Part shown: piece after piece, positions 18,091 through 63,806 of the stretch | Layout: each line of letters begins with the position of its first letter | Numbering within the stretch: position 1 is the stretch's first letter | NCBI GenBank assembly: GCA_013696965.1 | Contig: JACCXN010000056.1 | Location: forward strand, 15,457-79,456 | Reading direction: 5' to 3' | Source of the DNA: Bacteroidota bacterium | GTDB lineage: Bacteria > Bacteroidota > Bacteroidia > JACCXN01 | DNA: 64,000 bases | Translations under genes and position numbers: made by a program | The notes under the pieces: model-generated | What the model saw: the letters and a program-made list of their open reading frames with translations, nothing else | Databases searched by the model: none | Told to the model about the DNA's origin: nothing

Positions 18091-18188
18091 ATGAAATAGC
18101 CATGCACCTTCACAAACATCAATGAATATAACATGGCTATCCCGATTAATCTTGATGGCAGTTAAAAACAAATTATATACATATACAT
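18091..18188 (+). repeat. leader repeat copy A (hairpin leader ending at a start codon)
   Basis: It begins ATG AAA TAG. A 9-bp inverted repeat follows: ATAGCCATG at 18096-18104 pairs with CATGGCTAT at 18132-18140. After a CAGTTAAAAA stretch it ends with AAACAAATTATATACATA directly before the ATG at 18189. Closely related copies, with the same beginning and end, lie on the minus strand at 25604-25793 and on the plus strand at 62543-62639. Confidence 0.8.
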
Positions 18189-18293
18189 ATGAATAAAAAA
18201 ATCAAAGAAAAACAAAAGCAAAAAGAAGTACAGCGTTGTATTGCAAAATTAAGTCAATTGGGCTTCACGGTAAGATTAACGCCAGTATATTAA
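18189..18293 (+). CDS. possible small Lys-rich peptide downstream of the leader repeat
   Basis: A 34-codon frame starts exactly at the end of leader repeat A and encodes a very basic peptide (MNKKIKEKQKQKEVQRCIAK, then LSQLGFTVRLTPVY). I recognise no family. Its start occupies the same place as the real starts of the two other genes that follow this leader, the only reason to take it as coding. It could be the decayed start of a longer gene. Confidence 0.35.
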   Translation: MNKKIKEKQKQKEVQRCIAKLSQLGFTVRLTPVY

Positions 18294-24406: not shown

Positions 24407-25603
24407 TTATTGCTTTATCATCTTTTGTAAATGACTATTGTTATGATTGTAAACCCTTACAAAATATAAACCAGAAGATAGTTGTGAAATATCAATTGTT
24501 AAGGAGGTTAAGGTTTCCGAAATCACTTTTTTCCCCAATGAGTTTACGATCTCAACATGGGTGAATTCCTCTGAATTAACAAGTTTTATTTCATTGATAG
24601 CAGGATTAGGGTAAATGAAAAAAGCATTTTTATCAGTGACTTTATTTGAGGTTTCAGTAATTAAGGAACCAGCTGATTCAATTGCAAAAAGCTCATTAAT
24701 AGTTGATAAATAGGAATAATCAATATTACCATTGCTTATATTGATAGAAATTAAATTCTCATTTCCTAATAAATCATAACCAATGGTAATAAAACGCTTG
24801 TTAAGTGTATCAAAACTTGTTGCTTGGGGATTATAATCATCCAAGTCAGAGGGTAAATAAGTTTTTATGATAGTTTCTGTTTCCAGTATTAAGTTTATTT
24901 CAACCAACTGTAAATCTCCTCCACCTAATGGTCTTGCCAAAGAATACACCTTGCCATTGGCATTCTGAGGGCTAAAAATTTCTAGAGCTGGTGAAACATA
25001 GGAATAATCAACATTTCCGGAAGTGGTATTTATTGCAATTACACTTTCATCATAATTTAAATCATATCCAATTGCAATAATTCGATTGTTTTGATGATCA
25101 AAACTGGTAGATTCAGGATTGTAATCATATAATTCAGTATCTAAGTACGTTTTAATTACAGTTTCTGCGCTTAAGGATAAATCAAATTCAATTAATTGTA
25201 AATCTCCATTCGTTAAATTTCTTGCAAGGGAATAAATTTTTCCGTTTCCATATACCAGGCTAAAAGGTTCAACATTAGGGGAATTGTATGAATAATCTAT
25301 ATTTCCGGTAGTTGTGTTTATAGAAATAATACTTTCATTACCCAATAAATCATATCCAACCGTTAAAAATCGATTGTATTGAAAATCAAATGATGTTATT
25401 TCGGGATTATAATCATTGAGTTCTGCAGGTGTGTAAGTCTTAATTAAAGATTCTGTTCCTGATGTCAAATTAATTTCAATAAGTTTCAAATCACCGCCTC
25501 CAAGCGGTCTTACTAATGAATAAATTGGAGAATTCTGAGCTGTAAGTACTGGAGTTAATATTGAAAAACTAAGTAATAAGAAAAGAGTAATTTTTGTTTT
25601 CAT
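24407..25603 (-). CDS. T9SS-sorted secreted protein with three ~95-residue internal repeats
   Basis: This is a 398-residue protein. The ATG at 25603 (MKTKITLFLLLSF) is chosen because it directly follows the conserved leader repeat and gives a normal signal peptide cleaved near LTA|QN. The longer ATG at 25633 would lie inside the leader. Three tandem copies start with IYSLVRPLGGGDLKLIEINL, IYSLARNLTNGDLQLIEFDL and VYSLARPLGGGDLQLVEINL. Each continues through a KTY..ELxDYNPExTSFD block and ends near GNIDYSY, a probable beta-propeller. The final 75 residues are a T9SS type A tail (FFIYPNPAINEIKL, then SSGLYFVRVYN). Function unknown; surface or secreted by sorting signal. Confidence 0.85.
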   Translation of the reverse strand: MKTKITLFLLLSFSILTPVLTAQNSPIYSLVRPLGGGDLKLIEINLTSGTESLIKTYTPAELNDYNPEITSFDFQYNRFLTVGYDLLGNESIISINTTTGNIDYSYNSPNVEPFSLVYGNGKIYSLARNLTNGDLQLIEFDLSLSAETVIKTYLDTELYDYNPESTSFDHQNNRIIAIGYDLNYDESVIAINTTSGNVDYSYVSPALEIFSPQNANGKVYSLARPLGGGDLQLVEINLILETETIIKTYLPSDLDDYNPQATSFDTLNKRFITIGYDLLGNENLISINISNGNIDYSYLSTINELFAIESAGSLITETSNKVTDKNAFFIYPNPAINEIKLVNSEEFTHVEIVNSLGKKVISETLTSLTIDISQLSSGLYFVRVYNHNNSHLQKMIKQ

Positions 25604-25702
25604 ATGTATATAATTTGTTTTTTTAGTTGTCATCCCGATTTATCGGGACGACAAGTTATCTTTATTATTGTTTGTGCACTGTTCGGTGCATGGCTATTTC
25701 AT
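25604..25702 (-). repeat. leader repeat copy B, gene-proximal unit
   Basis: Read on the minus strand it starts ATG AAA TAG at 25702 and contains GCACCGAACAGTGC, a small hairpin. It carries a second, strong hairpin at 25627-25654, with TTGTC-x-TCCCGA pairing TCGGGA-x-GACAA. It ends AAACAAATTATATACAT directly before the start codon at 25603. Fifty bases of it are repeated with one mismatch in the distal unit 91 bp away. Confidence 0.8.
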
Positions 25703-25793
25703 ATGTGTTTTTTTTTGTTTTTTAACTGTCATTTGGTATAGCCATGTTATCTTTATTAGTGTTTGTGCACTGTTCGGTGCATGGCTATTTCAT
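25703..25793 (-). repeat. leader repeat copy B, distal unit
   Basis: This is a second tandem unit on the minus strand. It starts ATG AAA TAG at 25793. The arms ATAGCCATG and CATGGCTAT (25780-25788 and 25738-25746) can form a 9-bp stem around a 33-nt loop. It ends ACAAAAAAAAACACAT next to the start codon of the proximal unit. Confidence 0.8.
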
Positions 25794-54948: not shown

Positions 54949-55429
54949 ATGGAAAACACATCAATAAATGAACTAGGTCCTAGCTTTAGAACCAGAAAGC
55001 CGTGATTATTCATTATACTCCACTTATTTTGTAACCCTTTGTTTACAGGACAAACTGCTTCTTTTCGGAGAGGTAGTGAAGGGAAAAATGCAACTGAATG
55101 AAATAGGATCTTATGCAAAAAGATATTGGGAAGAAATAGCAATCCGTAATCCTCACATTGCATTAGATGCTTTTGTAGTAATGCCCAATCATATACATGG
55201 GATTATATTGATCAATAAAAAGGGAAATCAAAAAGAAATCATGTCCACTATAGTAGGTTCTTATAAAGCGGTAGTAGAGAAATCTGCCAAAGTAATAGTG
55301 CGCAAATTTGCATGGCAAGCAAAAATTCACGCTCAAATAATTAAAGATAAAAGCTCCCATACCACTATTGCTGATTACATTGTAAACAATCCATCAAAAT
55401 GGAGGCATGATAAATTTTATAAATCTTAA
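54949..55429 (+). pseudogene. REP-associated tyrosine transposase (RAYT, IS200/Y1 family), frameshifted
   Basis: The long intact part (55076-55429) includes the HUH motif in FVVMPNHIHGIILI, the probable catalytic Tyr in IVGSYKAVVEK, and the typical end FAWQAKIHAQIIKD and YIVNNPSKWRHDKFY. The expected N-terminal region is split. ATG at 54949 gives MENTSINELGPSFRTRKP and then a TGA, while another frame gives DYSLYSTYFVTLCLQDKLLL leading straight into the intact part. One base has therefore been lost or gained near 55004. RAYT proteins mobilise REP hairpins. No intact REP pair was found next to it. Confidence 0.8.
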
Positions 55430-62163: not shown

Positions 62164-62542
62164 TACCGGAAAAGATAGCAGTAAAGGATAGTTATTAAAA
62201 GCTTCAGCTCACAAAGCAGCTCTTTTTCTTTTCAAATTAAAACATAATCAGGCCTAAAGGGAAGAGCCTAGTTTTAGAACTAGCCGTTAACTTGTAGTTA
62301 TACTTGCAGCATGCCCAAATAGATTTTTCATTGTAAGTGTAATAAATCCCAAATAATATACTCTAAGCCTTTTTGTAGCCAATTTTCCCCTAAAAGTCAC
62401 ACGAATTCCACACATAAGAGATTATGTCCAAAGAATATTGCATTGTAATAGTAGAAATGCAGGAATGGAATAAAAATAAATGTATTATCAAGAATTGGTT
62501 TTCAAAAAACATTATTGGTAAAAAAATAGGCATGCAAAAACA
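62164..62542. other. intergenic between the iron locus and the leader repeat
   Basis: About 380 bp with no gene seen. CTAGTT..AACTAG at 62271-62286 is a small palindrome. A weak hairpin near 62200-62225, followed by T-rich sequence (CTTTTTCTTTT), may end the TonB receptor transcript. Confidence 0.35.
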
Positions 62543-62639
62543 GCAATGAATATAACAAGGTTAAACGTAAGTTCGTGAAATAGCCATGCACCAAACGTTT
62601 GCAAACACTAATGAAATTTAAAAAACAAATTATATACAA
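62543..62639 (+). repeat. leader repeat copy C
   Basis: The first part (62543-62574, AATGAATATAACAAGGTTAA) matches the middle of copy A and looks like a truncated distal unit. The second part starts GTG AAA TAG CCATGCACC at 62575 and ends AAACAAATTATATACAA directly at the ATG at 62640. The second hairpin arm CATGGCTAT is missing in this unit. Confidence 0.75.
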
Positions 62640-63806
62640 ATGAAAAAAATTACTAGTATAACACTTGCTGCTGCTATAGTCATACTTGCTTTTTCCTGCA
62701 AAAAAGACAACATTTCTAAGGATAAAATTAGCGGAATAAGTCAAAAAGGGCCTTTTATAAATGGATAATCAATAACTGTTTTTGAATTAAATAGCAGCTT
62801 TTCTCAGACAGGAAAATCTTTCAATACTCAAATTTCAGATAACCTGGGCTCTTTTGAACTGTATGATATTAAAACCAAAACACCTTTGGTAAAATTAAAA
62901 GCCGAGGGTTTTTATTATAATGAAGTGACCAATGCCAATTCTTTGGCTTCTATTGCCTTGTATGCTTTATCCGACCTAACAAACAAGAACACTGTAAATG
63001 TCAATATTTTAAGCACTTTAGAGGTTTCCAGAATTGAATATTTGCTTGGCAAAGGTTCTACATTTAAGGAAGCGAAAAAGCAGGCGCAAAAAGAAATTCT
63101 AAACATTTTTTTTATTGGAAAATCCGATATTTCCGAATCAGAGCTGCTGGATATTTCTAAAAACGGAGACGACAACGCTATTTTACTGGCACTCTCAGTG
63201 ATACTGCAAGGATATAGAACAGAAGCTGAAATGTCGCAATTCTTGGCCGATATCTCCACGGATATCAAAATTGACGGTGTATTGAATAGTTCCGCACTTG
63301 GTTCAGAGCTAATAAACAGCGCCAGATTAATCAACTTACCTGAAGTCAGAAAAAATATTGAAAACAAGTTCCAGTCCCTAGGTGTTTCGGCAGTTATTTC
63401 GGATTTTGAAAAATATGTAAAACAATTTATTAGTTCCGCGACCTATACATATACAGGATCAATAAAATATCCGGAAAGTGGTCACTTTGGAATCAATATT
63501 TTAAACAATACAAGCCACCAAATAGTCTCTATTGGCGAAAGTGTTAGCTTTTGTGCCGATTTACCTAAAGGATCCCACCTGAAAGTAATTTCAAATCCTA
63601 ATACAAGTATTGTGGGATATGATATGGGAATAATATTAAATAAATGGATATTTACAGGGGATAATGATAAAGCAGTTTTAGAGTCTATTTCTTCGGGACT
63701 TATTGATTTGAGAGTGCACTGTGTTGGTCAAGGAAGCGTTACCTATGATATTTATGAAAACCATTCATTAACTCCCACAAGAACAAAAACAATTTATATA
63801 CAATAA
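62640..63806 (+). pseudogene. lipoprotein gene interrupted by an in-frame TAA
   Basis: The frame begins at 62640 with a signal peptide and lipobox AFSC. It runs through ISGISQKGPFING, then has TAA at 62766-62768, and continues in the same frame for 346 codons: SITVFELNSSFSQTGKSFNT and onward to TIYIQ. The KGPF.NGSS.TV.EL pattern, common in Bacteroidota lipoproteins, spans the stop, so the TAA replaces one residue in a conserved place. The later ATG at 62886 would lack the signal peptide. I read it as a gene recently inactivated by one base change. Its function is unknown. Confidence 0.8.

Follow-up and report, generated by a model that had tools for sequence, protein, structure and literature searches.

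The window analyzed here, a 64,000-nucleotide stretch of a Bacteroidia genome, carries on its minus strand the gene for a secreted 398-aa protein and, directly in front of it, two head-to-tail units of a short repeat. The left ATG of this tandem pair lies at 25793-25791, the middle ATG at 25702-25700 and the ATG of the gene at 25603-25601. An earlier reading of the sequence alone had reported about 50 shared bases with one mismatch at a 91-bp period. The pair is real, with one base differing over the first 48-50 bases, and its first and second units have periods of 91 and 99 bp, respectively. The related copies that this reading had placed on the plus strand are also present, starting at 18091 and 62575. 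The window has exactly four copies of the 16-mer GAAATAGCCATGCACC, where 0.7 would be expected even with three mismatches allowed. The units and the genes behind them are listed below, with the boundary of unit 1 set from the empty-site comparisons that follow.

25789..25793, minus strand: left ATGAA, presumed native start codon before insertion and now part of ATG-AAA-TAG, as judged from empty sites at other genes
25698..25788, minus strand: element unit 1, 91 bp, lying 3' of the native ATGAA (25793-25789) and having its right-end ATGAA at 25702-25698
25599..25697, minus strand: element unit 2, 99 bp, of the CCCGATAAATCGGG hairpin type, whose right-end ATGAA (25603-25599) includes the T9SS gene's start codon
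24407..25603, minus strand: gene behind the pair, 398 aa, secreted, with a signal peptide and a T9SS C-terminal sorting domain
18096..18193, plus strand: single element unit, its right end bearing a 6-base extension, CATATACATATGAA
18189..18293, plus strand: basic ORF of 34 aa behind the single unit, a candidate gene only
62523..62574, plus strand: degenerate unit remnant directly upstream of the unit at 62580, the two forming a two-unit array
62580..62644, plus strand: shortened unit, 65 bp, middle deleted, with GTGAA as left flank
62640..62768, plus strand: lipoprotein reading frame that begins at the unit's ATG and meets an in-frame TAA after 42 codons

The lipoprotein gene may be broken, as it reads GGA-TAA-TCA in frame. 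At the tandem pair, an in-frame ATG within unit 2 (GGGATGACAACT, 25601-25633) makes mechanical ORF calls begin 10 codons early; the signal peptide runs from 25603. A short sequence, ACGTAAGTTC(G/T)TGAAA or similar (ATGTAAGTTT), lies beside or inside several units (window 62563-62577, L076 at about 350-370, L066 at about 5690) and is perhaps part of another repeat.

Each intact unit has an NTG in front, almost always ATG, and ATGAA at its end, and so spans the distance from an NTGAA site to its own ATGAA; within arrays, the terminal ATGAA of one unit is the start of the next. A beginning of start codon, AAA and TAG had been proposed for all copies. It is common, but TAA, TGA, TCC and TAT also occur in the wider family. 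The units do end at a start codon as proposed, yet the motif quoted for this end (AAACAAATTATATACA) is not general, the first tandem unit ending in a different A-rich sequence, AAACAAAAAAAAACACATATG. Conservation at the right end also does not stop before the start codon, but includes it together with the next two bases (ATGAA). There are no terminal inverted repeats: the left end reads ATxxCCATG, the right end CANATGAA.

The host genome (3.86 Mb, 106 contigs) contains about 120 copies. Searched with up to two mismatches, GAAATAGCCATGCACC is found at 120 places genome-wide versus none for a reversed-pattern control, and BLAST with the tandem pair gives 62 matches. At the host-genome loci read, units measure mostly 89-99 bp, besides a variant of about 147 bp; the family as a whole ranges from about 65 to 150 bp. 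The longer variant has an extra block, AAATGCTTTAGCATTCTTGAGTTCCTTAAAGGAA, ahead of its right end (L061, L067, L070, L071, L073, L075, L077, L097 and others), perhaps a nested insertion. Units stand singly or in head-to-tail arrays of mixed units, often at contig ends. Left halves of array neighbours are barely more alike than those of random pairs (identity 0.871 versus 0.846), and arrays therefore grow by further insertions; slippage, the local form of the duplication suggested by the sequence-only reading, is rejected on the same figures. The assembly branches at two places. The end of nqrB is followed in contig C26 by a three-unit array and a GNAT gene (L075, 4650-5110) and in contig C60 by a different unit and nqrC-F (L091, 1-200), and contig C44 can be reached at its start from C35 as well as from C73, through a 127-base overlap. 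These branches suggest strain variants, rearrangement through arrays or an assembly artefact, and are a hint of array recombination.

The ATG that closes the last unit is usually that of a real gene, and for conserved genes it proves to be the genuine start codon. The earlier reading would have been refuted by genome-wide copies lying away from start codons, but most lie at one: in a tally made by hand, 31 of about 45 resolvable terminal ATGs in the host genome open an ORF of at least 42 aa, whereas for non-coding ATGAA sites of the window the figure is 21 of 74 (28%; binomial, 2e-8). Outside the host genome, almost every unit end opens such an ORF. As had been noticed for the window, the genes behind the units are unrelated. 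T9SS sorting-domain genes are the commonest class behind host-genome copies (7/28), next to maf, thiC, nqrC, gldC, FAA hydrolase, peptidase and lipoprotein genes; elsewhere the units precede dnaN, gcvH, hisG, sdhC and genes for a DEAD-box helicase, thiolase, universal stress proteins and epimerases. As housekeeping genes are also hit, a recombination target that swaps surface genes, another earlier suggestion, is not the main story. AA follows the terminal ATG in essentially every intact copy, versus 11 of 30 long ORFs in the window. Taken with the unrelatedness of the genes, this identifies ATGAA, and not a gene family, as the target. Some gene types carry the element in different families, in each case with that family's own lineage subfamily: FAA hydrolase (L061/L285), RidA (L129/L287), saccharopine dehydrogenase (L222/L275) and universal stress protein (L170/L191/L240). 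This suggests recurrent independent insertion or preferred sites.

Filled and empty versions of the same site could be compared in four cases: RAYT paralogs, dnaN, sdhC and a universal stress protein gene, the empty sites of the last three coming from species of the same genus. A RAYT (Y1_Tnp) gene on contig C42 of the host genome is interrupted by a copy, and its paralogs on C4 and C105 are intact; the site reads ..AATAAATG-CGATTAAAG.. in C4 (empty) and ..AATAAATGAA[AT..CATATGAA]ATTATGG.. in C42 (filled). The dnaN site is filled in genome G156 and empty in G093, whose protein is 98% identical, as well as in G186, G013 and G125; the upstream DNA of G156 and G093 matches up to the native ATGAA. 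At sdhC, the filled site of G007 (..GCTACTAATTATGAA[ATAGCC..ACACATGAA]TCGTTTT..) compares with ..GCTATTGATTATGAATCGTTTT.. in G089 (93%), and three more genomes are empty. For the universal stress protein gene, G156 has the filled and G093 the empty site, with upstream regions that align in part only. The left ATG(AA) is present at all four pairs. At dnaN, sdhC and the stress-protein gene, the native sequence ahead of the insertion closes with ATGAA, and the filled site carries some 90 extra bp with the element's own ATGAA at their end, a clean insertion at the start codon. At sdhC, the base before the right ATG is C, versus T in the native sequence, and the right CAC-ATG therefore belongs to the element. 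We read the right ATGAA as the element's own end, although a target duplication of four or five bases could leave the same trace. The conserved part, which had been described as a leader and not a gene, is indeed a leader common to unrelated genes, but it is more than that, and of the options offered earlier, the mobile 5'-UTR proves right from the filled and empty sites. It is nearly certain, in our view, that the repeat is a mobile element with ATGAA as its insertion site, in most cases at a start codon.

The host-genome form is narrowly distributed. An exact 17-mer was found in 4 of 395 genomes of the class, and a longer pattern scanned against 84,980 species genomes was found only in the MAGs nzgw115 and UWPOB_BACT3 (own records excluded). 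Units of relatives have diverged from this form and occur in about a fifth of the Bacteroidia genomes sampled: a sequence profile (R1) gave matches at E <= 0.01 in 30 of 149 genomes from many families, with E-values that are rough owing to a shortened calibration and with possible chance hits among genomes having a single weak match. Several of the 30 genomes hold lineage-specific subfamilies with 5-48 matches each.

The sense strand of the units is structured, with z-scores down to -6 and, for unit 2 of the window, a predicted fold at -24 kcal/mol. RNAalifold on a whole-unit alignment returned three pairs only because hairpins of unequal length misalign, and covariation was therefore counted on anchored positions. 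In helix 2, the right-end CAN'ATG, start codon included, is base-paired with a CATNTG further inside the unit. Among 102 units, N:N' is A:T in 62, C:G in 15, G:C in 8, T:A in 8 and another combination in 9, so that 93 of 102 are Watson-Crick; all four pair types occur, with almost no G:T. G007 alone has 16 of 20 complementary N:N' pairs, again of four types. The conserved TTCCATNTG is complementary to CAN'ATGAA if one C bulges. Helix 1 joins xxCCATR to YATGGxx (for example AGCCATG/CATGGCT, CCCCATG/CATGGGG, ATCCATG/CATGGAT and AGCCATA/TATGGC). Here, position x2 pairs in 140 of 168 units versus a maximum of 131 in 2000 column shuffles, and position y in 132 versus a maximum of 112, in shuffles that leave the relatedness of units uncontrolled; covariation of helix 2 within genomes is the stronger argument. 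Not all units conform. Some in the host genome have the CCCGATAAATCGGG hairpin instead of helix 2, and in many a CCCGAT hairpin replaces CATATG without a clear right guide. The right end thus has either a helix with the cut site or the CCCGAT hairpin, and the left-end guide pairing consists of CAT:ATG only. The left hairpin (GCAC..GTGC and variants) is clear in many units and weak in the commonest host-genome class.

The element inserts in one orientation at ATGAA, in most cases one made up of a start codon and the two bases that open codon 2. To its left, the native ATGAA is kept. On the right, it ends in its own A-rich leader and ATGAA, so that the gene regains its reading frame but exchanges start region and start codon for those of the element. 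The old start is left with a short stub, presumably ATG-AAA-stop in the host-genome subfamily or another short frame, and new copies also insert at the element's own right end and so build arrays of unlike units. Several traits suggest a non-autonomous IS200/IS605-like (HUH) element: hairpins lie on one strand, the ends are not inverted copies, the target is a fixed pentanucleotide and an internal segment is complementary to the cut site. Insertion on the 3' side of a tetra- or pentanucleotide, with neither inverted ends nor duplication of the target, characterizes this group (PMC7290912), and guides 5' of their hairpins pair with the cut sites (PMC6006769). By analogy, the element would move as single-stranded DNA through a trans-acting IS200/IS605-like Y1 (HUH) transposase. 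Two segments are putative guides in this model: the internal TT(C)CATNTG would pair with the right-end cut site CAN'ATGAA, and CCAT, located 5' of the left hairpin, with the ATG target. Copies before genes may be retained as the gene comes to depend on the element for translation initiation, and copies elsewhere may decay; selection on the gene-side part of the element could explain why older copies in other genomes are almost all before genes. As a whole, we assign a probability of roughly 0.6 to a dispersed family of start-codon-targeting elements of the non-autonomous HUH type.

That a Y1 enzyme moves the element is, in our estimate, slightly better than an even bet. Y1_Tnp genes occur in every genome tested. 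The neighbourhoods of RAYT/IS200 genes in the host genome, G048, G007, G093, G083 and others yielded no transposase with matching ends, the only copies met near RAYTs being the one that interrupts a RAYT gene and one some 230 bp downstream of a second RAYT, and Y1_Tnp genes with examined flanks carry other palindromes. Left ends without right ends, or the reverse, revealed no longer autonomous copy, only truncated, degenerate or contig-end copies. The host genome has about a dozen RAYT/IS200-like Y1_Tnp genes or fragments (window 55103-55390; contigs C94, C17, C33, C41/C72, C58, C4, C42, C59, C60 and C105). Many of these have their own palindromic repeats right before the ATG, in a layout (hairpin, TGACAT, ATG) like that of the element's right end.

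Other explanations share part of this evidence. A cassette moved by a site-specific recombinase, either a tyrosine enzyme acting integron-like on folded single strands or an IS607-like serine enzyme, with ATGAA as crossover core and arrays built by repeated integration, would account for the finding of the same 5-base core at either junction of all intact copies, the absence of inverted ends and the head-to-tail arrays of unlike units; the shared ATGAA fits a 5-bp-core recombinase and a target duplication of 4-5 bp equally well. We nevertheless consider it unlikely, since an internal segment complementary to the cut site is a feature more familiar from IS200/IS605 elements. An ATGAA core would be non-canonical for integron attC. 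A structured cis-regulatory RNA, that is a leader or switch occluding the start codon, spread by ordinary recombination and conserved mainly for function, develops the shared riboregulator of the sequence-only reading. It is suggested by the internal pairing of the start codon with its strong covariation, by the structure z-scores mentioned above and by the conserved A-rich leader. As the primary nature of the element it is quite improbable given genes as unrelated as dnaN and lipoprotein genes, the copy within a RAYT coding sequence, empty orthologous sites in close relatives, multi-unit arrays, the many host-genome copies that lack the start-codon pairing and the near absence of G:U at the covarying pair. 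Since the start codon pairs with an internal segment, regulation may be a secondary effect, the helix possibly also regulating translation.

The frequency of T9SS genes behind host-genome copies might point to a single leader having been copied passively among paralogous surface genes, through homologous recombination or gene conversion. The empty sites contradict this, as they share only ATGAA with the element, and the unrelated genes and the low similarity of adjacent units leave it very improbable. Translational bypassing, akin to byp, in which translation begins at the left ATG-AAA-stop and the ribosome then jumps across to the right ATG-AAA, would make sense of the take-off-like ATG-AAA-TAG, the hairpin and the matching ATG-AAA landing site in the host-genome subfamily. 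However, arrays would require several hops, the right end has its own leader and ATG, and the G156 subfamily lacks the stop (ATGAAATCCCC), so that we regard it as extremely unlikely. A function of TAG itself as a 'MK-stop' was dropped for the stop's absence in other subfamilies, and a DDE-type MITE is ruled out by the lack of inverted ends.

If the start-codon-targeting element is what we propose, it solves a particular problem of insertion. An insertion into a start codon is expected to destroy the gene in most cases; the element avoids this as it carries its own leader and start codon, and it makes itself indispensable as the gene now starts inside it. It would represent a natural system for the exchange of translation start regions and would explain recurring identical leaders ahead of unrelated Bacteroidetes genes. 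The proposed guide-to-start-codon pairing makes target choice directly testable. For annotators, such leaders call for caution, being mobile and liable to mislead start-site calls and to break assemblies.

The earlier statement that no named family fits holds for the collections searched: Rfam 15 gave no match above gathering score, phage and plasmid collections contained none, and our limited search of full-text literature (subscription journals being outside its scope) retrieved no description of start-codon-targeting elements. HEARO/IscB elements of the IS200/IS605 superfamily integrate at ATGA/GTGA, a similar start-like target, but consist of a much longer RNA plus an ORF, and the element has no Rfam match with them. 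REP/REPIN/BIME sequences with their RAYTs are, like the element, short, high-copy, lineage-specific, intergenic and clustered, and the host genomes carry RAYTs. In contrast to them, the element lacks a GTAG/GGAG tag and an inverted REP pair, was not found flanking RAYT and sits exactly at start codons. A REP/REPIN identity is ruled out, as the hairpin foot is CCAT and not the GTAG/GGAG (or CGTC) tag, the units are head-to-tail and the RAYT flanks that were read carry other palindromes. IS605 stem loops near lipoprotein genes in Borrelia (Delihas 2009, PMC2775950) are similarly dispersed without a transposase and tied to genes, but lie at the 3' ends of lipoprotein genes and supply no start codons. 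TAACTGA direct repeats (MacGregor 2015, PMC4679880) also stand just upstream of the start codons of unrelated genes, in some Bacteroidetes too, yet comprise 7 bases without structure, boundaries or known insertion.

The closest resemblance is to non-autonomous elements derived from IS200/IS605 (PATEs), with which the element shares the absence of inverted ends, a fixed short left target and movement presumably in trans, as well as, less uniformly across its units, hairpins on one strand and an internal complement of the cut site. It differs in that its target is the start-codon pentanucleotide ATGAA, that its own leader and ATGAA restore the gene and that a partner transposase was not found; IS608, moreover, has a hairpin between right-end guide and cut site, where the element has an A-rich loop instead. 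The element is thus probably non-autonomous and of HUH type, with a real chance of being a distinct class. At somewhat less than even odds, it would constitute a new class of mobile element that naturally targets the translation start, recognizes ATGAA by guide pairing, replaces the host start region, is hard to lose and has, in many Bacteroidia lineages, rebuilt the 5' ends of genes by the dozen, even of essential genes like dnaN.
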